Positions 16,274 through 43,610 of a DNA stretch of 64,000 nt are shown here, in pieces. The DNA is from Malus domestica. Taxonomy: Eukaryota > Streptophyta > Magnoliopsida > Rosales > Rosaceae. The position numbers were made by a program, and so were the translations under genes. Where the stretch lies: the NCBI RefSeq assembly GCF_042453785.1, contig NC_091664.1:31048501-31112500 (forward strand), given 5' to 3'. The notes beneath the pieces were generated by a model, which saw only the letters and a program-made list of their open reading frames with translations, was not told the origin of the DNA and ran no database searches. Each line of letters starts with the position of its first letter. Positions within the stretch are counted from its first letter, which is position 1.

Positions 16274-16276
16274 TAA

Positions 16277-17465
16277 GGGTGCGTTTGGTACGTGGGATGG
16301 GACGGAACAGAATGGGACGGACGCGTTCCATCCCACATTTGGTGCGCCAAAATTATGTGGAACGCGTGTCCCACGGAACGAAAATGGGTTAGATTTTGGT
16401 TCCCCCTTCCCCCCCTGGAACGGGTTTTTCCATCTCGTGGGACACAAAATTATATTTTTTTGGACAACAATACCCCTCTTATTTTTCATTAATTACATTG
16501 TCTACCTCCTGTTCTCTCCCGTAACCTCCCTCTCTTCTACCCTTGTCTCTCCCGTAGCCCTTCTCTTCCTCCACCACAAACCCAGTAACCCAACTGCTAA
16601 CCCAATCCCAACAAACCCATCTGACAACGACGACGTCACCATAGCAAACCTTCTTCTTCTCCGATGCCGTTTGGCGTCACGAACATAACCCGCATCTCGT
16701 CATCTCCGTCCGTGTAAGCAAGGTGGATCTGATCCGGAACACGACCCGATTCGAAGCTAAGCTCGTCATCTGAGGTGGCGAGCAGGTGGGTGGTGCCGGG
16801 GAGGGGGTTGTGGTCCTGGTCAAGGTGGTTAGGGTCGACCTCGGACTCGTTCCAGCCGAAAATCCAGAAGGAGTAGTTGAATCGGAGATTGACCAGAGGG
16901 AGGGAAATGGAGCCGGACCCAGATTTCCATGTGGGGGCGGAGGAGAGGAACTTGCATCCTATAAAGTTGTCGTGGTGGGAGGAAGGGGGCGAGTAGATGC
17001 TGAGCCAGTCGAGTCAAGAGGGCGAGTCGATGCCGGACCATTGGATTAGGACGGAGTCGCCTGATTTGGAGAGGAAAGTTAGGGAGAGAGAGTGAAACAG
17101 TTTAATGGTTCGGAGGGAAGAAGGTGGATGCTGCACGGAGGATGATGACGACGCTGCAGAAATTGATTGAAATGAATTTTGAAATTTTTCTGTGTTTGAT
17201 TTGAAGAGATAGAAATTGTTTGGGGGTCTAATTCGTCATTTTTTTTCTTCTTGTAATTGTTTGGGGGTCTGATTGGTTGTCGAGAAAACGAAGGAAAACG
17301 ACAAAGCTACAGAAATTGTACAAACAAGGCTAAGTTAGTCATTTAACACGAAATCCGAACCGTTCCGTCCTATGCATACCAAACATAACACGAACCTCCA
17401 TTTCGTTCTGTTCCATCCCGTCCCGTCCTGTTCTGTTCCGTCCCGTCTGCGTACCAAGCGGTACC
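16277..17465. mobile_element. PIF/Harbinger-type non-autonomous DNA transposon carrying a host gene fragment
   Basis: The ends are inverted: the left GGGTGCGTTTGGTACG faces the right GGTACCGCTTGGTACG (read inward). Inside both ends are GGGACGGAACAGAA-like subterminal repeats. The element is flanked by TAA at 16274-16276 and 17466-17468, the 3-bp TWA-type duplication of PIF/Harbinger. No transposase is visible in 1189 bp. The interior holds about 470 bp of a purple acid phosphatase gene on the minus strand, so it belongs with the gene-capturing Pack-type TIR elements. Confidence 0.85.
16640..17110 (-). pseudogene. Captured fragment of a purple acid phosphatase gene (PAP2/PAP9-like)
   Basis: Read on the minus strand, the interior of the Harbinger-type element encodes SKSGDSVLIQWSGIDSPS, then [74 protein letters not shown] and RVMFVTPNG. 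This order is the N-terminal, fibronectin-like region of plant PAP2/PAP9-type phosphatases just before the metallophosphatase domain. The metal-binding catalytic half is absent. One in-frame TGA follows DSPS; otherwise the frame is open for about 150 codons. No intron is seen within it. Function as a phosphatase is excluded. Confidence 0.85.
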
Positions 17466-17515
17466 TAATTGAACATAAGCAGGTGGCGTTAGTAGATGGA
17501 ATTCTATTTTTCACA

Positions 17516-18690: not shown

Positions 18691-19940
18691 GCTATTACAG
18701 TAAATATAGAAATATAGAGAATAATCCGAATGATGAAATAATCCGAATGATGACTTTAAGGTTCTTTTTATATTTGTTTCCTTCGACAATGTGAACTTTA
18801 GAGAAATCTTGATTTGCAAAATTCTTATCACAATTTCGAGTTTCCTCTTCAATTTGAATACCCTTTTGCAAATTCTCCAAACTAATATTTTCCACCATGT
18901 GTAGAAGTTTCTTTCTATAGTTATTCCATGTTTGGGGTAATTTTGCCATAATAGCCCCAACTATCATAGGATACGGAATAACTATTTTAAGTTCACGAAG
19001 CTTTGAGACCAAGACCAATAATTCATGAACTTGGTCTAGGATGGGTTTGTTATCAAACATAGTGAATTCATAATATTTGAACATTAAAAATTTATTGGTA
19101 CCTCTTTTTTCCGTTGTGTACTTGTGTTCAAGTGCTTCCCAAATTTTCTTTGGAGATTGAATGTGTGCATACATGTCATATAAACGATCGGATAATGTGC
19201 CCAAGATGTGTCCTCGACATACCAATTCATCTTCTTCACGCTTCTTTCGATCAGCAACTGTATTGTCCGAGTCTTTGTCACTTGGCTCACAAATAGGCTC
19301 CAATTTCGGGTCCAACACATATATGACATTTAGAACAGTAAGCATGAAACGCATCTTGTCCTTCCATCGGGTGAAATTTGATCCATCAAATTTGTCTAAC
19401 TCGTAGACATCTTGATTGATAATCTTCAAAGCCATGTTATCAGATTTGTTATCCATGACAAAAATAACACTTTAAGATTGTTACAGTAAATATAGAAATA
19501 TAGAGAATAATCTGAATGATGACTTTAAGGTACGACTTGAATCGTTTCCTTAAAGTGTTATTTGCCCCCACTCGAATTAGTTTGCTAAAGGGTTCTTGGC
19601 AAATCACTTCCAGGATACAACAAAGTATGGAATATTTGATTAGCAAAACCGAATTGTATTCCCTTAGAAATAACTAGAAAAAAATTGTATGAATGTGGTG
19701 AAGAGAGAAAAGATAGCAAAGAAATTACGTAGACAACAAATTTCTGAAATTGTGTATGAAACATTATGCCACAAAAGGTATTTATAGGTATTAAGGCACC
19801 CGTTCATCGAGTCATTTCATTTTAATTAAAGATATACAACTCTTCTTAAAAGTGTTGATCTAAAAGACATGTCTTCTATTTAGAATTTTCAGAAAATAAA
19901 TATTGACTAATTATATTTTTTAATTTTACTCATACAATTT
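18690..19940 (-). mobile_element. Copia retrotransposon remnant (gag region plus LTR-like flank)
   Basis: The minus-strand frame at 19456-18770 encodes a Copia gag-type protein. Landmarks are LDKFDGSNFTRWKDKMRFML, the IWEALEHKYTTEKRG region and LVSKLRELKIVIPYPMIVGA. Upstream of its start (19457 to about 19940) lies AT-rich sequence of LTR/leader character. A ~50-bp stretch just upstream of gag (about 19487-19533) recurs at 18693-18760 on the other side, suggesting internal loss by recombination between short repeats. No protease, integrase, reverse transcriptase or second full LTR is seen. It is a broken fossil, and the outer edge of the LTR-like part is not defined. Confidence 0.75.
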
Positions 19941-24387: not shown

Positions 24388-25230
24388 CAGAGCACAAAGG
24401 GTGTATGAGTTATTAATTTCGATCCAAGAAAATTAGTAAACAGCTTATATGATAGAGTTAGACGAATTCATACTGTGATTTTAGATAAATTAACAAATAA
24501 CTTCAACAAAAATCCGATTATGACTCTTCTTCAATCCAACTTCTCCTCAATTCAGTTCATTAATCTCCATTCAATTCATCCCACTCTAACGACTAATTAG
24601 TAAATATGCATAATAATAGTAATGCAGAACAGAGGGGAAAAAAAAATTAAAGTTTTTTTTGTTTTGGGTAATTTGTGTGCCGAAGCCCATCAAAACAAAC
24701 CAGATAGAAATCATATTGGGCTACAAAACGCTACACTTGATCGACAACAAAAAGCAGCCCAAATCATCATTAGGCCCAAGTAATCCAAGGGGGTCATATT
24801 TCTCTACGCATTTCTGTGGAAATTGGGTGTCAGAGCCGAGATAAAAACAAGAAAATTGGAGGAAGAAAATCAAATTTAAAATCGGTTTACACTCTCAGAC
24901 TGGCCAATAGTAAAAACCTGGCTGCCATACTTTCCGAAGGCGGCGTCCGAGACGACGGAGAGCGAGTATAAGAACCGGTTGCACGCTCGTAATTAAACCG
25001 CTACTCGCTGTGAGTGCTTTCATCTTCTCTACTTTTCTGCATCGTTTTTAGCTAGGGTTTCTGTTTGCGTTTTCTGGTTTTTTAATTTAATTTAATTATA
25101 TATATATATTTCAGATTTTACGTTTTCGTCGTTATTTGAAATTGGAGTTGCAGTAAAACCCTAGGCTGACTTGTTTGGAGGTTTTGAATTTGTGTACTAG
25201 GGTTTCTGAGATTCGGATTGAGATCTTGAA

Positions 25231-28200
25231 ATGGCGCAGCACTTGGGCGGCGGTGCGGAGGCGCACGCCCGGTTCAAGCAATACGAGTACCGTGCTAACT
25301 CGAGTTTGGTGCTGACCACCGACTCTCGCCCACGTGATACGCACGAGCCCACCGGCGAGCCGGAGTCTCTATGGGGAAAGATTGACCCCAAGCACTTCGG
25401 TGACCGGGCTTACAGGGGAAGACCGCCGGAGCTCGATGACAAGCTTAAGAAGTCGAAGAAGAAGAAGGAGCGGGACCCGAATGCTGAACCTGCTCCAGTT
25501 CGGCAGAGTAAAAAGCCGCGGCTTCATGAAGAGAGCGTGCTCACGGCCACTGAGGAAGGGGTTTATCAGCCTAAGACCAAGGAAACCAGGGCTGCCTATG
25601 AGGCTATGCTCAGCGTCATTCAGCAGCAGCTGGGTGGCCAGCCTTCGAGTATCATAAGCGGCGCTGCGGACGAGATTTTGGCCGTTCTTAAGAACGAGAA
25701 CTTTAAGAATGCTGATAAGAAAAAGGAGATTGAGAAAATGTTGAATCCTATACCCAACACCGTCTTTGATCAGTTGGTTTCAATTGGGAGGTTGATTACT
25801 GACTTCCAAGATGGGGGTGATGCTGGAGGGTCTGCCGTGGCTAATGGTGATGAAGCCTTAGATGACGATGTGGGTGTTGCGGTTGAGTTTGAAGAAAATG
25901 AAGATGATGATGAGGAGAGTGATCTTGATATGGTCCAGGAGGACGACGAAGAGGACGACGATGATGTGGCTGAACCACATCAGTCTGGGGCTATGCAAAT
26001 GGGTGGTGGGATTGATGACGATGAAATGCAGGAAGCAAACGAGGGTATGAGCCTTAATGTTCAGGACATTGATGCTTATTGGCTTCAGAGGAAGATATCT
26101 GAAGCTTATGAGAAACAGATTGATCCACAACAATGCCAGAAGCTTGCTGAAGAGGTGCTCAAGATACTCGCTGAAGGTGATGACAGGGAAGTTGAAACCA
26201 AGCTGTTGGTTCACCTTCAATTTGACAAATTCAGCCTTATTAAGTTTCTATGTCGAAACCGGCTGAAGATTGTCTGGTGCACGCGTTTGGCCAGAGCCGA
26301 AGACCAAGATGAGAGGAAGAAAATTGAGGAGGAAATGCTGCAGTTGGGTCCAGATTTGGCTGCAATTGTAGAACAGCTGCATGCCACAAGGGCTAGTGCA
26401 AAGGAGAGGCAAAAGAACTTGGAGAAGAGTATTAGAGAAGAGGCTCGCAGGTTGAAGGATGAGAGTGGTGGAGATGGGGACAGGGGTAGGAGGGGCCTGG
26501 TCGATAGAGATGCTGACAGTGGTTGGTTGAAGGGGCAGGCAGAGCTACTTGATCTTGATAGCCTTGCACAAGAGCAAAGTAGACTTTTGGTGTCAAAGAA
26601 GTGCGTGCTTCCAGATGGGTCTTACAGACATCCCAGCAAGGGATATGAAGAAATCCATGTGCCAGCCTTGAAACAGAGACCATTTAATCCTGATGAGAAG
26701 CTTGTAAACATATCTGCCATGCCAGAGTGGGCTCAGCCGGCTTTCAAAGGAATGACCCAGTTGAACAGGGTACAGAGTAGAGTCTATGAGACTGCCCTTT
26801 TCAAAGCGGACAATATCCTGCTATGTGCTCCTACTGGTGCTGGAAAAACTAATGTTGCAGTGCTCACTATACTTCAGCAGTTTGCGCTGAACATGAACAA
26901 GGAGGACGGTTCCATAAACCACAGTGATTATAAGATTGTATATGTTGCACCTATGAAAGCTCTTGTTGCGGAAGTTGTTGGAAATCTTTCTAATCGTTTG
27001 AAGGATTATGATGTCAATGTGCGGGAGTTAAGTGGTGACCAGACATTGACTCGCCAACAGATTGAAGAAACTCAAATTATTGTCACAACCCCTGAGAAGT
27101 GGGATATCATTACCCGAAAGTCAGGAGACCGGACTTACACTCAACTGGTCAAACTTCTTATCATTGATGAAATTCATCTCCTCCATGATAATAGAGGCCC
27201 TGTTCTTGAAAGTATCGTTGCTAGAACTGTTAGGCAGATTGAGACCACTAAAGATCATATTCGGTTGGTGGGGTTATCTGCTACTCTCCCTAACTATGAA
27301 GATGTGGCATTGTTCTTGCGTGTTGACCTTAAGAAGGGACTGTTTTATTTTGATAACAGTTACAGACCTGTCCCCTTATCTCAACAGTATATTGGAATCA
27401 TGGTGAGGAAACCATTACAGAGGTTCCAGTTGATGAATGATCTCTGCTATGAGAAGGTCGTCGCTGTGGCTGGAAAACATCAAGTCCTTATCTTTGTCCA
27501 TTCGAGGAAAGAAACAGCCAAAACAGCTCGAGCTATAAGAGATACTGCACTTGCCAAGGACACCCTTGGCAGGTTTCTTAAAGAAGACAGTGCTAGCCGA
27601 GAGATTCTAACTACTCATACAGATTTGGTCAAGAGCAATGATCTCAAAGATCTTCTGCCGTACGGTTTTGCCATTCATCATGCTGGATTGAACAGGGCAG
27701 ATCGCCAACTGGTTGAGGATCTCTTTGCTGATGGGCACGTACAAGTTTTGGTTTCCACAGCAACACTTGCTTGGGGCGTGAATCTGCCAGCTCACACTGT
27801 GATAATCAAAGGGACTCAGATCTATGATCCAGAAAAGGGAGCATGGACTGAACTAAGTCCTTTGGATGTTATGCAGATGTTGGGGCGTGCAGGAAGACCT
27901 CAGTACGATTCGTATGGAGAAGGGATTATCATTACTGGCCACAATGAGCTTCAATACTATCTTTCTTTGATGAACCAACAGCTTCCCATTGAAAGTCAAT
28001 TCATATCCAAATTGGCTGACCAACTTAATGCTGAAATCGTTCTTGGAACTGTTCAAAATGCTAGAGAAGCTTGCAATTGGATAGGATACACTTACCTGTA
28101 TGTTCGCATGCTACGTAACCCCACACTCTATGGTTTGGAAGCTGATGTTCTCTCCAGAGATATTACATTGGAGGAGAGACGAGCTGATTTGGTAAGAATC

Positions 28201-31200
28201 GCTCAAACTTAGCATTATTTGCTGTTGACATTTTCATTCCCTTGCAACATTAGTAATAGTAGTATAGTATATAACCATATTCTTAATTGCACTAGATAAC
28301 AAACAAGTGCATATCAATGGAGAGGAAACACGCGAACAAAAGGGGCTTGACATAGTAATGTCAAAAAGTAGTATTGGTATAGGAATTTGCTTGTCCCATT
28401 CTATTAGATATTTTATGGCATTTGAGTCTGTGTTGACCATGATGGTTTTTGGGTTTTGATATATTTCATCTTTAATTCTATCTGGTTTCTCTTGGACTCA
28501 TTTAGTGCTCGTCCATTCTGTTCTTATCGTTGCTGTGGCACTTTGTAGCATTTATCTGGATTCCTGCATTCTGTATTTCTTATGGATCTCTCATTTTGTC
28601 TCAACCATTTCATTTTGCAGATCCATTCTGCTGCAACCATCTTGGACAAGAATAATTTGATTAAGTACGACAGAAAAAGTGGATATTTCCAAGTTACAGA
28701 CTTGGGTCGCATTGCAAGTTATTACTATATAACTCATGGAACAATATCCACATATAATGAGCATTTGAAGCCTACAATGGGGGATATTGAGCTTTGTCGA
28801 TTGTTCTCGCTCAGTGAAGAATTTAAGTATGTTACTGTGCGGCAGGATGAAAAGATGGAGCTAGCAAAGCTTTTGGATCGTGTTCCCATTCCGGTGAAGG
28901 AAAGCCTGGAAGAGCCCAGTGCCAAGATCAATGTCTTGCTGCAAGCATATATCTCACAGCTGAAGCTTGAGGGGCTTTCGTTGACATCAGATATGGTCTA
29001 CATTACTCAGGTTTGTATTATTATTTCATGCTTTTTTCTCATTTATTGTTTGAGATACAGTTTGGATTGTGCTGCCAGCTTGTTCTAGCTTACGTATATA
29101 TTTTGTTTCTCTTATCCTGTTATTCATTTTCTGCTCTTTTTTTTTTTTCGGTTTTGGATTTGTTCAGAGTGCAGGGCGTCTTCTACGAGCTCTTTTTGAG
29201 ATTGTCTTGAAACGAGGATGGGCTCAACTAGCGGAAAAGGCTTTGAACATGTGTAAGATGGTTAACAAGAAGATGTGGAGTGTCCAAACACCTCTTCGCC
29301 AATTCACTGGTATTTCAAATGATATTTTGATGAAGCTGGAGAAGAAGGATTTGGCCTGGGATAGGTATTATGATCTCTCTTCGCAGGAGCTAGGGGAGCT
29401 TATTCGTATGCCAAAGATGGGAAGAACACTTCATAAGTTCATCCACCAGTTCCCCAAATTAAACCTTGCAGCCCATGTGCAGCCAATTACTCGCACTGTA
29501 TTGAGGGTGGAGCTCACTATAACACCAGATTTCCAATGGGAGGACAAAGTTCATGGATATGTGGAGCCATTTTGGGTAATAGTGGAGGATAATGATGGCG
29601 AGTTTGTCCTTCATCATGAATATTTTCTGCTGAAGAAGCAGTATATTGATGAGGATCATACTTTGAACTTTACAGTGCCAATATATGAGCCCCTTCCGCC
29701 TCAATACTTCATTCGTGTTGTGTCTGATAGGTGGCTCGGGTCCCAGACTGTTTTACCTGTTTCTTTCAGACACCTCATTTTACCTGAAAAGTATCCTCCA
29801 CCAACAGAGTTATTGGACTTGCAACCACTTCCCGTGACTGCATTAAGGAATCCGTTATATGAAGCTCTGTATCAAGATTTCAAGCATTTCAATCCTGTTC
29901 AAACTCAGGTTTTCACTGTTTTGTACAATTCAGATGACAATGTCCTAGTTGCTGCACCAACAGGGAGTGGGAAGACCATATGTGCAGAGTTTGCTTTATT
30001 GAGGAATCATCAGAAGGGCTCTGATAATGTCATGCGTGTTGTGTATATTGCACCTATTGAAGCTCTTGCCAAGGAACGTTACCGTGACTGGGAGAAGAAG
30101 TTTGGAAAGGGTCTCAATCTGCGAGTTGAATTATTAACAGGGGAAACAGCCACAGACTTAAAACTGCTTGAGAAAGGTCAGATTATCATCAGCACTCCAG
30201 AGAAATGGGATGCTTTATCCCGCCGCTGGAAACAGAGAAAGCATGTTCAACAGGTTAGTCTTTTTATTATAGATGAACTCCACTTGATTGGTGGTCAGGG
30301 TGGTCCCATCTTGGAGGTAATAGTCTCTAGAATGAGATACATAGCGAGTCAACCTGAGAACAAGATTCGTATTGTGGCTCTGTCAACTTCTCTTGCAAAT
30401 GCAAAGGATCTTGGGGAATGGATAGGGGCTAGCTCTCATGGCCTTTTCAATTTTCCTCCTGGTGTGCGCCCAGTGCCTCTGGAAATACACATTCAGGGGG
30501 TGGATCTGGCTAATTTTGAAGCCAGGATGCAAGCAATGGCAAAACCCACATACACTGCAATTGTCCAGCATGCCAAGAATGGGAAACCAGCTCTTGTTTA
30601 TGTTCCTACAAGGAAGCATGTTCGACTAACGGCTGTGGATCTGATGACCTACTCAAATGCAGACGGTGGGGAGAAACCGTCATTTCTGTTGCGGTCTGTA
30701 GATGATATTGAGCCTTTCATTGAAAGACTTGGCGATGAAATTTTGAAAGGCACTTTGCGCAGTGGAGTGGGCTACCTGCATGAAGGTTTAAGCAGTTTGG
30801 ACCAAGAAGTTGTGTCACAGCTGTTTGAAGCTGGGTGGATTCAAGTTTGTGTCATGAGCAGTTCAATGTGCTGGGGAGTGCCGTTGTCAGCACATTTGGT
30901 GGTTGTGATGGGAACTCAGTATTATGATGGCCGGGAAAATGTTCACACTGATTACCCTGTTACTGATCTGTTGCAGATGATGGGTCATGCTAGTCGCCCT
31001 CTACTAGATAATTCTGGGAAATGTGTCATCCTCTGCCACGCACCTCGTAAAGAATACTACAAGAAGTTCTTGTACGAAGCATTCCCTGTTGAAAGCCATT
31101 TGCACCATTATCTACATGATAATCTGAATGCAGAAGTTGTTGCAGGAATAATTGAGAACAAGCAAGATGCTGTCGATTACCTTACATGGACTTTCTTGTA

Positions 31201-32359
31201 CCGGAGGCTCACACAAAATCCCAACTATTACAATCTTCAGGGAGTTACTCAGCGGCATCTTTCTGATCACCTGTCGGAGCTTATTGAAAATACACTGAGC
31301 GACTTGGAGGCAAGCAAGTGTGTTGCAATCGAGGATGACATGGACCTTTCTCCTTTGAATCTTGGCATGATAGCTTCATACTATTACATCAGTTATACCA
31401 CCATTGAGCGTTTCAGTTCGTCTTTAACTTCCAAAACAAAGATGAAGGGTCTTCTTGAGATTCTAACTCACGCTTCGGAGTATTCACAACTTCCTATTCG
31501 ACCAGGGGAGGAAGAGGTAGTTCGGAGGCTAATTAACCACCAGAGGTTTTCCTTTGATAATCCCAAATGCACAGATCCTCATGTTAAAGCAAATGCTCTG
31601 CTTCAGGCCCACTTTGCTAGGCAGCCTCTGGGTGGTAACCTAGCGTTGGACCAGCGAGAGGTGATCCTTTCCGCTAGTAGGTTGCTTCAGGCGATGGTTG
31701 ATGTCATTTCCAGCAATGGCTGGCTAAGCCTTGCTGTCTTAGCCATGGAAGTCAGCCAGATGGTGACTCAGGGCATGTGGGACAGGGACTCGATGCTTCT
31801 ACAGCTTCCTCACTTCACAAAGGAGTTGGCAAAGAGATGCCAGGAAAATCCTGGAAAGAGTATAGAGACAGTGTTTGATTTGGTTGAGTTGGATGATGAC
31901 GAAAGGCGTGACCTACTTAAGATGTCAGATTCACAGCTGCTGGATATTGCACGATTTTGCAACCGCTTTCCCAACATTGATATGCTATATGAGGTGCTTG
32001 ATAGGGATAACATAAGGGCCGGGGAAGAAATCACTCTGCTAGTCACTCTCGAACGTGACCTTGAAGGGAGGACTGAGGTAGGTCCTGTGGATGCCCTGAG
32101 GTATCCCAAGGCCAAAGAAGAGGGCTGGTGGCTTGTGGTCGGCGATACCAAGACAAACTCGCTGCTCGCCATCAAGAGAGTTTCGCTGCAACGGAGGGCC
32201 AAGGTGAAGCTCGAGTTTGCTGCTCCTGCCGAACCCGGAGAGAAGAGTTTCATTCTTTACTTCATGTGCGATTCATATTTGGGATGCGATCAGGAATATG
32301 ATTTCACTCTTGATATTAAGGATGCAGCAGGACCTGACGACGACAGCGGCAGCGAATGA
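25231..32359 (+). CDS. BRR2: U5 snRNP helicase BRR2 (DExH-box, two helicase cassettes)
   Basis: BRR2 unwinds U4/U6 snRNA to activate the spliceosome. Coding exons 25231-28191, 28621-29010 and 29168-32359 give 2180 aa, close to Arabidopsis BRR2a. The N-terminal region has an acidic stretch (about residues 210-250), then cassette 1 with Walker A APTGAGKT, box [17 protein letters not shown] and [13 protein letters not shown]. Sec63-type sequence follows. Cassette 2 has [12 protein letters not shown] and a degenerate motif VI (GHASRP instead of GRAGRP), then a second Sec63 region. The active first and degenerate second cassette is normal for this family. A 5' leader intron is likely (GTGAGT near 25011). 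It converges on the lyase gene, with stop codons about 395 bp apart. Confidence 0.98.
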
Positions 32360-32753: not shown

Positions 32754-34805
32754 TCACTCTGGTGGAGGTCCTTCCAGTCGGATGTAGTCGTACATAACTC
32801 CGGCGAAAGGTCCCCAGTTTCTTGATTGAGTAAGGTATATGGTGTTGTATCCTTGTTGTAGTCGATAGCTCGGCACATCAACACTGAAAAGCCAGTACAA
32901 ACCATGAATTCCATGCCTTGCTATGGCATTGTCCTTCCCTATTAGCCCTGTCGAAAAATGAGGTGTGTCGGTCTGGTTGTTGAATCGAACCTGCAGTTCA
33001 GCATAGGTGGCCGAAGCCAATGCCAATTGGAGCGTATAATCTCCGGTCCAAACGTCTTCAAGTTGAAATACAATTTGCCATGTCGTTGCCTCGTATGTAC
33101 CGTTTCTGTTTCTTGTCACATGAGCGTAAAACCAATCATCGTTGTAATTGTCTGTGCCGACGGTGTAGATGAGATCATGGTCAGGGTAATAATCTCCATA
33201 TCGTTCCCACAAGCCATATTGCCTAAACTTGTTTGCGTAATTGTCAGTGAACAAACGGTTCACAAGGGTCGGATATGGATCCGGTATGTTGAACTCTGCG
33301 GCTGACCGATCGGGGATGCCAATCTCCCACAAGGTTGGACCACTTCTCGGAGGTTCGAAGGTAATATTAGCTAAGTTGATTTCACTTGCAGGTTCAATTG
33401 TAATATCATGCTCGTACTTGTAGTCCCCAATGAAGCCGGGAACAGTTGCATACAAACTATAGTTCCCCGGTCGAACATCTTTTATGTAGAAATAACCTTG
33501 CTTGTCAGCTTGAGTCCAGAACTGATAACCCTTGCATTCCATTTGCCATGATCCCGCGTATCCGCGTGCAGCCAATCCCACATAAGCATAACTTGCTGAA
33601 TCTAGGCCCTCGTGGAAGTACGAATCCCATATTAGTAACTGACCAGCAACTGATCCACGTTCATCGGAGCTAGGAAAGTCTTCGGACTGAGTGAAATTGT
33701 ACGGCCAACTCTTTACTTCTTCATACATCTGTTCCTTTGCATTTTCCCAGAGAGAGAAGGAGGCATTCGAGCTTGGAATGTCCGAGTTAAGATACACAAA
33801 GACAGGACCAAAAACCTTCTTCCATGCCTCACCTTCTGCGAAGGTCAGTCCAAAACCTCTCCCGACGTAGTGACTACTAAGAAACACAGTGAGGGAAGTT
33901 GGTCCCACATGAGAGGTAAGTTCCTGCTTGAACGGCCCCGCTGAACGAAACTCAGTACTAGGTGTGATCATCCAAAGACCTATAGCATCGTCAGTGCTAA
34001 TCCAACCGTGAACCTTGATGTCTTTGACTTCACTGGAGTATTGGTATTTGTCATCCACCTCTCCTTTAAAGTCGGGATTGCTTGGATTAGTTAAAAGAAC
34101 AGCTTCGCGATAGGCAAGGGCCTGAGCGTGGTCTCCGTCGCGATCTTTGGCTGTTGGCATGAATCTTCGTCTGTCGTCTGATACAGCCATGAATTGAAAT
34201 TTATCTTCTCGAAGTTTCAAAACGAGTCTTGTTTGACCTAGGTGCAATTCCGGCCACCCTTCTAGACGCTCATATATGGCATATGCATAGAACCCAGCGC
34301 GGCCACGCTGCATTATGTATCTTTTGTCAACATTTAAGGGTAGCGTCCAATCACCGAGGGAAATATCAAAAGTTTTATTAAAAGAAATCTCTATTTGGTC
34401 TGCCGTCGATGTAACAATCTTGAATGTTGTTCCTTGTAGTCTGTCCAAGCCATTTTTCGAGACAAGATCCCAGTAACCTCTATTGCTTGGGGGGTTTTTG
34501 ATTTCGAGCAAGTTGTCAATTCCCTTGTATTGAATTCCAATGACATCTCCTCCAGGATAAGAAAAAGTGACTCGGACAATGCCATTGTTCAGCTCCACCG
34601 TGTTATGAGTTTGTTGTGTTAGCATCTGGTTGAAATTGAGCTCATTACCATTAACACTCCTTAGTGCTCGCCTTCCAGAAATCGTTATCGTCTCAGAAGC
34701 ACCATTATTATTGTGGAGGAAGAAGAGCAAACCCAGTAGTGCGACTGAAAAAACTCCGAGGATACCCCATCTCCTCCATTGCCTCACCTCCTCCATCGAA
34801 AGCAT
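32754..34805 (-). CDS. Rhamnogalacturonate lyase (PL4), intronless, membrane-anchored
   Basis: This enzyme cleaves the rhamnosyl-galacturonosyl backbone of pectic RG-I in the cell wall. The whole protein lies in one open frame with no intron. The frame is open up to an ATG at 34859, but I prefer the MLSMEEVRQWRRW start (about 34805), because the basic head is then followed by the hydrophobic ILGVFSVALLGLLFFL segment, a signal anchor. Domains in order are a beta-sandwich catalytic domain (VELNNGIVRVTFSYPGG, GFYAYAIYERLEGWPELHLG, ending near residue 380), a middle fn3-like domain (YFYIKDVRPGNYSLYATVPG) and a C-terminal CBM-like domain (GLYWLFSVDVP, then AGVMYDYIRLEGPPPE). Plant paralogues I know are interrupted by introns, so a retrogene origin is inferred. 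A relic of its 5' end lies near 3071. Confidence 0.93.
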   Translation of the reverse strand: MLSMEEVRQWRRWGILGVFSVALLGLLFFLHNNNGASETITISGRRALRSVNGNELNFNQMLTQQTHNTVELNNGIVRVTFSYPGGDVIGIQYKGIDNLLEIKNPPSNRGYWDLVSKNGLDRLQGTTFKIVTSTADQIEISFNKTFDISLGDWTLPLNVDKRYIMQRGRAGFYAYAIYERLEGWPELHLGQTRLVLKLREDKFQFMAVSDDRRRFMPTAKDRDGDHAQALAYREAVLLTNPSNPDFKGEVDDKYQYSSEVKDIKVHGWISTDDAIGLWMITPSTEFRSAGPFKQELTSHVGPTSLTVFLSSHYVGRGFGLTFAEGEAWKKVFGPVFVYLNSDIPSSNASFSLWENAKEQMYEEVKSWPYNFTQSEDFPSSDERGSVAGQLLIWDSYFHEGLDSASYAYVGLAARGYAGSWQMECKGYQFWTQADKQGYFYIKDVRPGNYSLYATVPGFIGDYKYEHDITIEPASEINLANITFEPPRSGPTLWEIGIPDRSAAEFNIPDPYPTLVNRLFTDNYANKFRQYGLWERYGDYYPDHDLIYTVGTDNYNDDWFYAHVTRNRNGTYEATTWQIVFQLEDVWTGDYTLQLALASATYAELQVRFNNQTDTPHFSTGLIGKDNAIARHGIHGLYWLFSVDVPSYRLQQGYNTIYLTQSRNWGPFAGVMYDYIRLEGPPPE

Positions 34806-35352
34806 GTCAGCCTCTCTCCGCTTGGAAAAATAGAGTACTTGTTCGTAATAACAAATCAATGTAGTTTTTCTGTTTTGAGATTAACTGATTATATTCGATA
34901 TTATATAGTCAGGCACATTCATCCTCATGTAGTTAGGACTCCTCGTGTTGTTGGAATTCCTAATATAGAGTTTGGTTTGATTTTCCTTAAATTAGAATAT
35001 ACGTCCGCTTTTATGTTTCTTTGTTACTTAAAAGTTTTCCTGGACGATTTAGGAAGTCTTGTTCCTTTTAATTTTCGGTAGATAATTTGTTTAGGATTTG
35101 GTTTGAATTTTCGTGGTTAAGTTGGGATTTCCGTTTGGTTGGTTTGGCTGCTACTTGCTCTCAGGTTAGGGGGTTTGATTTTTGGCAGAGTTCTGATTGC
35201 TTTCTGGAATATAATTTTTGTGTTTGAAATCCTCGGGTTTGATTCGAGTGCTGCTAAGCATGTTCCAGCTGTTGGTGTTTCCCTTCGAATTTAACCTAGT
35301 ATTTGCTAAAATGAAACAGCTTCGGATAGACTAGGATCAGGTGACATCTGAT

Positions 35353-41061: not shown

Positions 41062-42117
41062 TTAAACTTCCGGTGCACTGGATCCCACCGACTTCCAGAG
41101 CTTCACCCAATCCGCCATGGCATCACCTGCACGAGCAAACATAGGATCTACCTTTCCCAACTGCTCCTTCACCGCCTTTGCCATGTCGACAACACAGTCT
41201 TCTGCAGTGACCGCTGATCGTGGCAACCTAACTGACTGAAAGAAAGGAACCACTTCCTCCATTAGCTTCACACCCTCCCACTCTTTCTTCAAGCTTTCAA
41301 TGGCATCACCTCTTTCCTTTCTCCATACATAAGGTATCCCAGTTTTTACGCCAATTCCCAGGTGATCGCATATGACCTTTACACACATTCCAGACCATAG
41401 ATCTTCCACGGTCTCCCACCTGATCTTTCCTTCCGCTGACAACCTCAAAGCCGGGAACAAAGCTGGCCCCACCACCTCACGATCAAAAGCAATGTTTATT
41501 CCACTTACAGGCATTAAAGATCTCACCGGAACAGTCATTACAGCATCCACATATCGAGAATTCCTCTGCTCTGGCTTGAGGGCCTGTGTTGGTGCATCAT
41601 AGTCTGCCAAATTGAGCCACAGTCCACATGATAGCGCACATGTGACCCCACTCCTCAGGCTAAATGGGTAACCACGAACAAAATCTGCTCCCTTCCGATA
41701 CGGATCATAGAGTGTGTTAAAAAAGAATGGGGTAGCTGGAGCTTTGAGATTGGCAATATGCTGTGCCACTACATCTACTATATGACCATTGTTGTCCTTA
41801 GCCGGGATGCAGTCATCATCAATTGAGATAATATATTTTTTCCTTGAGACCAGATAACCAAAATACCTGCATGAGTAACCAGAGAAGAGAATGGAATGGG
41901 AAGAGCCCACCAGCCGGTTTATGTCAGATTTGGTAAAGACATCCACGTTAAATCCTTCTGGAACATGGAGCTCCCCATCCATATCAGGGTCTTTGACAAT
42001 AATCAGATGGAACGGGGAGAATATTGGTCTCCATTCATTCAAGAATGGAGTCAGGTCGGAGTTGATTGCCGCAACCACGATGTCAACCTCACTAGGGTTG
42101 ATGCTTGTGTCAGACAT
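41062..42117 (-). CDS. Reversibly glycosylated polypeptide / UDP-arabinopyranose mutase family, 351 aa
   Basis: The family interconverts UDP-arabinopyranose and UDP-arabinofuranose at the Golgi surface for cell-wall polymers. The protein starts MSDTSINPSEVDIVVAAINS. It carries the DxD-type metal/UDP site SIDDDCIPAKD, FSGYSCRYFGYLVS, the NTLYDPYRKGADFVRGYPFS segment (containing the arginine region reported to be glycosylated) and LSCGLWLNLADYDAPTQALK. An upstream in-frame ATG at 42159 adds 14 residues not expected in the family. The coding region is a single exon. The 5' untranslated region probably extends with an intron to about 43590. The sequence diverges from the very conserved RGP1-type and looks closer to RGP5, which may lack mutase activity alone. 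Confidence 0.92.
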   Translation of the reverse strand: MSDTSINPSEVDIVVAAINSDLTPFLNEWRPIFSPFHLIIVKDPDMDGELHVPEGFNVDVFTKSDINRLVGSSHSILFSGYSCRYFGYLVSRKKYIISIDDDCIPAKDNNGHIVDVVAQHIANLKAPATPFFFNTLYDPYRKGADFVRGYPFSLRSGVTCALSCGLWLNLADYDAPTQALKPEQRNSRYVDAVMTVPVRSLMPVSGINIAFDREVVGPALFPALRLSAEGKIRWETVEDLWSGMCVKVICDHLGIGVKTGIPYVWRKERGDAIESLKKEWEGVKLMEEVVPFFQSVRLPRSAVTAEDCVVDMAKAVKEQLGKVDPMFARAGDAMADWVKLWKSVGSSAPEV

Positions 42118-43610
42118 CTTCAAACAGGAGTTGGGAGAGAAAAACAACAAAACTTGCACGTGCTTGTTTGATTAGTTGATCTTTGTCTTCCAAAAGTTAT
42201 ATACTCTGCCCACACAACAACACCCAATCTCAAAACTTTTCAGAGCATCCTGCACGAGATATTATTATAGGTCAGAAGAAGGCCGCCAAAATCAGTTTCA
42301 AATATTACAGGAAAGGAAGGACACTGGAAATTTTCAAACAAAACTTACTGGTAGGAAGGACAGGGGTGAGGGTCTGCCGAATATTAAGTGACTGGATTAG
42401 TGAAAGGACTTCTTCCTTGCCAGTTGCTACAAACAGCTTCAACACTTTCTCATTTAGCTTTCCTGCTCTCAAAGTTTTCTGCCATTAAACTGAATATTAC
42501 TATTCCCATATCCCAAATGCATAATCATACATGAAAGCGGAAGGCAAACAGAGACCTTAGAAAGGCAAAATGACGAAGGTGTGGTTGCAATTTTGACAAA
42601 TGTCTCAAATCAACACAGCAGTATAGAAAGCAAGAAGGAAAAAATGACGCCGGCATCAGACTATGAAAAAGTGATGTTCTGGTTTTCTCTTGATTAGAAT
42701 CAAACAATCAAACACTATTTTTCATTTTCAGCTAAATCTGAAATTTCAATCTATAATTCTCCTCAAGCACAACGTTTCACAATGTAACTAACACAGAACA
42801 CCTTGCTGATCTTTCACAATGGGGAGAGGGATCGGTTGGGGGCTGAGGGTGGGGATGATGTTATTTTCTCTCTGCTAAATCGACATTATCCACTAGTGAT
42901 CAATGAGAGCAATCTTTTACAACAACTTGCAGGAAACACAACAATCTTGATCATAGGCAGTCCACATCTGTCTCATGATTGACCATGTGGAGCTACAGAT
43001 CGAATATAAACATTGGAAAAGTCATCAAATTTACATGATACAGGTAGCACTCCATGCTTCAGGAAGCTAACACATATTCAACATTCTTTACCATAAAAGA
43101 TTAGGCAGATAAATTGTCTTTAAAAGAAATAATTCAGTAAATGTATGCAGGATGACAACATACATATGCTATTACAAAACAAACCCAAAATCCAAAAAAG
43201 GTAGAAAGCCCTAAAATCCCCAAATCATGCGAATCAGCAATTCATTCAACCCACGTCGATTGACATCAAAATTTCAAAAATTAAGACAAACCCAATTCAT
43301 ATCTCACCAAATCAAGCCTGCCCATGTCCACAATAAAACAAACAATCCATTTGAGACCCAAAAGAAAGTTACTTTCGCGGTAAAATCAAGAACAAGAATA
43401 CCAAATTACCAATCAGCTGTCTAATATTCTAAGGTCCTAACAGAAGGGAGAAATAGAGGAGGATAGAGAGAGTACCAGGAAGAGATCGAGGAGGATGTGG
43501 TCAGGGAGAGGAGAGAGATCGGATATACTGGGGAGGTTGAGGACAGCTAAGTCAATGGTGAGAGATAGCAGAGAAGGCGGAGTTCTCATTCACTCATTCG
43601 TACAAACATG
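42118..43610. other. Likely 5' untranslated/intron region of the RGP gene
   Basis: No other coding sequence is seen. On the minus strand, CTTCCTG followed by GTACTC near 43475 could be the donor of a leader intron. CT/GA-rich sequence surrounds 43450-43670. Confidence 0.4.

Follow-up and report, generated by a model that had tools for sequence, protein, structure and literature searches.

The window analysed here is a stretch of 64,000 nucleotides of the apple genome (C4:31048501-31112500). At positions 16277-17465 lies an inverted-repeat element of 1,189 bp. The original prediction had placed an element with inverted ends, bordered on either side by TAA, at this position. Its coordinates proved exact, with the qualification that the ends are imperfect repeats. 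The left arm (16277-16663, forward strand, 387 bp) begins with the terminal inverted repeat GGGTGCGTTTGGTACG and is also found in relatives without the phosphatase piece described below. The right arm (17127-17465, forward strand, 339 bp) finishes with its own terminal repeat, CGTACCAAGCGGTACC. Over the outermost 16 bp, GGGTGCGTTTGGTACG at the left corresponds imperfectly to GGTACCGCTTGGTACG at the reverse-complemented right end. Directly inward is an inverted pair of 25 nt with 88% complementarity, and the subterminal parts contain further inverted and tandem repeats. The two copies of the TAA target duplication were read at 16274-16276 and 17466-17468.

G+C content is 0.499 for the element, 0.562 for the captured piece and 0.337 for the flanks (1 kb per side, pooled). 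A 35-bp left-end pattern, allowing up to 3 mismatches, had 364 matches in the genome (651 Mb, 19 contigs), whereas the reversed control pattern had none. Hence, the element ends are not a product of chance. The flanks of the element, when joined, matched only their own place and gave one weak match (77%) elsewhere. No paralogous empty site was found in the genome with these joined flanks, a result that is uninformative either way. Ten open reading frames of 65-168 aa lie in or across the element, and none contained a Pfam domain at E 0.1. The list of frames includes none longer than 168 aa in or across the element, which thus has no transposase of its own.

Of the 27 window open reading frames with at least 130 aa, 8 were scanned with Pfam to survey the surroundings. 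A copia gag remnant is present at 18698-19471. The nearest host gene among the scanned frames encodes a BRR2-like helicase (25222-32356). Genes for a rhamnogalacturonate lyase and a reversibly glycosylated polypeptide occupy positions 32757-34880 and 41065-42171 respectively.

The phosphatase fragment and its donor gene

Between the two arms, on the reverse strand at 16666-17126, is a piece of a purple acid phosphatase gene that we take to be PAP2/PAP9-like. The piece is 461 bp long, comes from inside exon 1 and runs from codon 16 to about codon 169, counted from the predicted start. It covers the fn3-like region and the beginning of the domain that follows; the catalytic domain is absent. An N-terminal phosphatase fragment of about 470 bp had been proposed, and the alignment bears this out, with 439 of 463 columns (95%) identical to a gene on contig C13. 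The fragment ends inside the element and does not continue beyond 16277-17465, as the joined flanks also indicate.

The reading frame had been described as nearly intact, with one internal stop. That stop is present, as an in-frame TGA at 17014-17016 (reverse strand) where the parent has CGA. However, alignment to the parent also reveals a second in-frame stop on the same strand, TAA in place of CAA at 17102-17104, and, near 17092, a deletion of 2 bp that breaks the parent's frame. The window element thus combines two stops with a frameshift, and the catalytic domain of a working phosphatase resides in exon 2 of the donor instead. The fragment gave a partial fn3_PAP match (E 3.2e-05), under the Pfam cut-off, and a search of solved structures with its 151 aa gave no match at E 0.001. 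It had further been remarked that no intron is seen. The remark is correct but uninformative: the captured stretch lies within one exon, hence the missing intron says nothing about an origin from RNA or DNA.

The parent gene presupposed by the original prediction was located at C13:4186000-4195500 (about 4.19 Mb), with the piece matching at C13:4190413. Judged from its translations, this gene is apparently intact. The open frames that contain exons 1 and 2 are 268 and 431 aa long, respectively. The Pfam domains Pur_ac_phosph_N (E 9.2e-15), Metallophos (2.2e-14) and Metallophos_C (3.1e-16) were detected, with fn3_PAP under the cut-off, and a structure search matched exon 2 to solved purple acid phosphatases. 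Exon limits and start codon are predictions made by reading translations, and codon 16 was counted by hand from the translation. The start codon and the initial 15 codons of the donor are not part of the captured piece. A genome search with PF17808 produced 21 matches, all elsewhere. Since the C13 donor and the elements are missing from these matches, the search is insensitive for this phosphatase subfamily.

A second related locus, at C2:20433427 (within C2:20429000-20438500), is a degenerate phosphatase paralogue without element ends, 87% identical to the window copy. It holds exon 1 and partial exon 2 sequence in broken frames. A consensus built from 15 near-full fragments has 98.9% identity to the C13 donor and 92.8% to the C2 paralogue. 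Five sites are substituted between consensus and donor, and at three of these the consensus has the C2 state. These three differences therefore probably arose in the donor after capture.

Copies, sister elements and target sites

When the whole element served as query against the genome, 40 of 1,205 candidates were scored and 100 pieces came back; the counts given are lower bounds. A protein search with the fragment returned 35 pieces from 38 candidates. Further copies with the same ends had been anticipated and do exist. The phosphatase piece is carried by at least 22 dispersed elements on 12 contigs (L009-L029 and L046/L047), some with internal deletions. Among L009-L029 (n = 21), 10 are without the equivalent of about 17127-17310, and 4 without about 17248-17360. 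Two further places among the matches, C13:4190413 and C2:20433427, have the phosphatase sequence and no element ends. All 22 of the phosphatase-bearing elements align with the window element without a break across the left junction. Ends and fragment thus travel together, and neither of the two refuting findings named with the original prediction (independent ends, or a fragment running on outside the element) was obtained. Junction sequences were read at the left in the window and three further copies, and at the right in the window and two further copies.

One phosphatase-bearing element, L046/L047 (C10:14274039-14290697), is split by about 15.6 kb of other DNA. Another (C10:37872285-37875308) has an insertion of about 1.8 kb of other DNA. 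A third, at C15:20642499-20643753, lies less than 100 bp from another element of the same family.

We examined target sites at 37 loci, and both ends were located by script in 34. Identical 3-bp duplications flank 28 of these 34, with the consensus TWA (T in 24, A or T in 25 and A in 26 of the 28). The script detected no matching duplication in the other six, one of which (L022) has TAA on both sides on reading. Three bases outside the duplication, on the two sides, are C (17 of 28) and G (19 of 28). The target context of the 28 loci is weakly palindromic, roughly GTTCnnTWAnnGAAC.

Could a phosphatase pseudogene lie between unrelated inverted repeats by accident? The paralogue at C2:20433427 does demonstrate that a degenerate copy without ends is present in the genome. 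Conversely, the same arms surround the fragment in 22 dispersed elements, and duplications border 28 of 34 family elements. We regard an accidental arrangement as virtually inconceivable, and the arms and fragment held in common led us to reject it.

Ten relatives (L032-L041) have both arms, with extra tandem repeat units where the fragment would sit (read in four). In L042, which belongs to a separate branch, the join at the fragment's position is uninterrupted. Because the same uninterrupted join occurs in another branch, the comparison suggests that the state without the phosphatase piece is the older one. A left-arm tree of 36 sequences did not cleanly split phosphatase-bearing from other elements, and placed four elements without the piece (L042-L045) with the bearers; it was not used to order events. 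We infer a single capture, in which the gene piece would have taken the place of a tandem-repeat stretch still kept by sister elements.

Superfamily and acquisition of the fragment

The element had been called Harbinger-type. The TWA duplications at 28 of 34 loci agree with this label, as does the finding that three ends of the family have DDE_Tnp_4 genes nearby, and one of the three a Myb-like gene as well. Among 100 of the 364 left ends and 150 of the 157 PF13359 (DDE_Tnp_4) matches listed, three pairs fall within 8 kb of each other. The left ends concerned are at C15:13400830, C17:16871822 and C16:35005237, and at each the domain is downstream on the same strand. The chance expectation for such pairs within 3.2 kb is at most about 0.08.

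At the C15 locus, similarity to the family of the window element is about 90% over the left 150 bp, and an open reading frame with a Myb_DNA-bind_3 domain (E 1.4e-11) follows. Three close copies extend to the final or penultimate base of the C15 stretch that we extracted (L104). Hence, the C15 right end is either farther out or lost. A further element, at C3:19649183-19652391 (L106/L107), has both ends enclosing sequence like the C15 stretch downstream of the Myb-domain frame. It therefore shares the stretch after this frame with the C15 locus, without the Myb domain itself. The C3 element is flanked on each side by the 7-bp sequence TATATGA, and not by a clean 3-bp duplication.

From these sequence comparisons, membership in PIF/Harbinger appears well supported but not sealed, since the loci read include no complete autonomous element with DDE_Tnp_4, Myb and both ends, and no right end was found at C15 in 13404000-13407300. 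Mobilisation would have occurred in trans, by a PIF relative bearing DDE_Tnp_4 and Myb. Taken together, we hold it very likely that the window element is a non-autonomous PIF/Harbinger (Tourist-like) Pack-type transposon that carries a C13-derived phosphatase piece and has spread genome-wide.

The left junction offers a clue to how the piece was acquired. On the element side, the sequence ...CTTCTCCGGCGCCGTC is present both in a phosphatase-bearing element (L015) and in other elements; the crossover in the donor reads CCGCCGTC. Donor and element have GCCGTC in common, a microhomology of 6 bp at one junction. No element ends were found in the 9.5 kb around the C13 donor. The shared GCCGTC, and a donor locus without trace of an element, would be explained by template switching during the repair of a break or gap. 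The replaced repeat stretch also fits such an event.

Alternatively, two neighbouring insertions flanking the donor exon may have fused and then moved as one unit. This model has been put forward for Pack-TYPE elements of several superfamilies (PMC8903248, which also cites Catoni et al. 2019 for it), and the pair of relatives less than 100 bp apart at C15:20642499-20643753 confirms that neighbouring insertions do occur. However, remnants of elements are absent from the 9.5 kb around the donor. With arms of 387 and 339 bp, the element shows no inner terminal repeats beside the fragment. Furthermore, the related elements that we read are continuous across the fragment's position. We consider fusion unlikely here, and prefer template switching as the putative route.

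Decay, further captures and relation to known systems

Pairwise identity among the 15 near-full fragments averages 92.3% (range 89.6-95.4%), and their identity to the donor is 92.7-97.0%. Relative to the consensus, we counted 110 synonymous changes, 168 nonsynonymous changes and 16 stops. Under neutrality, 110.0, 169.1 and 14.8 would be expected with the same spectrum of mutations. Changes at the three codon positions number 90, 88 and 116. Because the change counts across the 15 copies fit neutral decay, the captured piece is shown to be a passenger without selected coding function.

We weighed whether the fragment may nevertheless be functional, either as a peptide made from an open frame or as a source of siRNAs that regulate the donor gene. 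Two near-full copies, L015 (C16:3379680) and L017 (C10:4680618), retain the donor frame whole. Small RNAs could cross-match the donor, given that fragment identity is still 92.7-97.0%. Conversely, in 13 of the 15 copies the donor's frame is interrupted by a stop or broken by an indel, the fragment begins only at codon 16 and so lacks the donor's start, and the classes of change are those expected under neutrality. These points bear on a coding role and do not refute the small-RNA effect that the original prediction put forward. Overall, a function seems very unlikely, and we retain the passenger reading.

The same family of terminal repeats holds at least two more gene captures. The first is in L045 (bases 201-1315, C8:4668535-4669649) and is replication-factor-C-like. 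The piece of 226 bp is 97% identical to C4:4635048-4635273 and 95% identical to C4:4743406-4743634. The gene concerned encodes MVLWVDKYRPKTLDQAIVHQDIAQNLKKLV, and the piece apparently extends from the end of its 5' untranslated part through the first exon and the intron into exon 2. The label is based on this peptide, whose matches are to subunits of replication factor C (best E 8.7e-05). In Pfam, the sole match was to Rad17 and fell below threshold (E 0.037). If the intron is rightly read, this capture was made from genomic DNA. All or nearly all of L045 is matched by five elements, itself included. Eight relatives share the outer parts and have no match to the piece at 526-746.

The third capture, of about 340 bp, is in L042 (C2:31129130-31130417) and L043 (C13:35944651-35945956). 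It is 91-92% identical to C6:20313375-20313715 and, for L042, also 88% identical to C14:16817985-16818328. These two loci are the likely donors. The piece consists of 5' noncoding DNA followed by an apparent first coding exon (MLEPELCGSRMLS...), presumably of a gene similar to those for plant SAP30-like proteins. It is possible, though doubtful, that this one PIF/Harbinger terminal-repeat family captured pieces of several host genes, each independently and from genomic DNA, with all three captures examined coming from 5' parts.

Several known systems resemble the apple element. Tourist-like or PIF-Harbinger MITEs are non-autonomous, make a TWA duplication, have ends that start with GGG and include a TTTGG core, and contain no recognisable protein domain of their own. 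The apple element has all of these traits. Its family differs from typical MITEs in being longer (about 0.8-1.3 kb) and in containing host gene DNA. Pack-MULEs are Mutator-like, with 8-9-bp duplications, long terminal repeats and a 5' acquisition bias. Like them, the apple elements are amplified, non-autonomous and contain captured pieces of host genes, but their duplications are the 3-bp TWA. The Pack-TYPE traits are also present: host gene DNA between terminal repeats, a donor elsewhere, a piece that moves with the element and no transposase.

The original prediction held that gene capture is much less described for PIF/Harbinger elements. This needs correction, since gene capture has already been described for the Pack-PIF elements of maize, such as Zm-Pack-PIF cluster #18 (PLoS Genet 2022, PMC8903248). 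As described there, cluster #18 has a 163-bp piece, at 97%, in 72 copies and absent from a sister group of 52. Both it and the apple element have PIF-type ends, mostly TTA/TAA duplications and an internal host gene piece. The species, gene and terminal-repeat family are different, and the apple fragment is larger (461 bp). For the apple family, moreover, a donor exon, junction microhomology, neutral decay and at least three gene pieces are documented. Among the other papers listed by literature searches, including PMC11197308 and PMC12550479 (on transposons of the Rosaceae and of 207 plants), no title or abstract opening names gene capture by the family of the window element or by an apple PIF element, although the bodies of these papers may mention it. 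A literature search with the terminal sequence gave no plant-transposon paper by title. The kind of capture is thus already known from maize; what sets the apple family apart is that the donor is resolved, that the piece has decayed neutrally and that several captured genes occur in one family.

For annotators of the apple genome the finding is a caution, because at least 22 partial phosphatase look-alikes are transposon cargo. More broadly, this is a well-resolved case of PIF/Harbinger gene capture, apparently outside the grasses. A single genome provides the donor, the junctions, sister elements without the piece, the copy number and the neutral decay. How such elements acquire DNA could be studied well in a family that carries three different gene pieces. 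If the 5' bias holds across other family members, Pack-PIF elements would share the bias of Pack-MULEs, and a common repair-linked mechanism would become testable.
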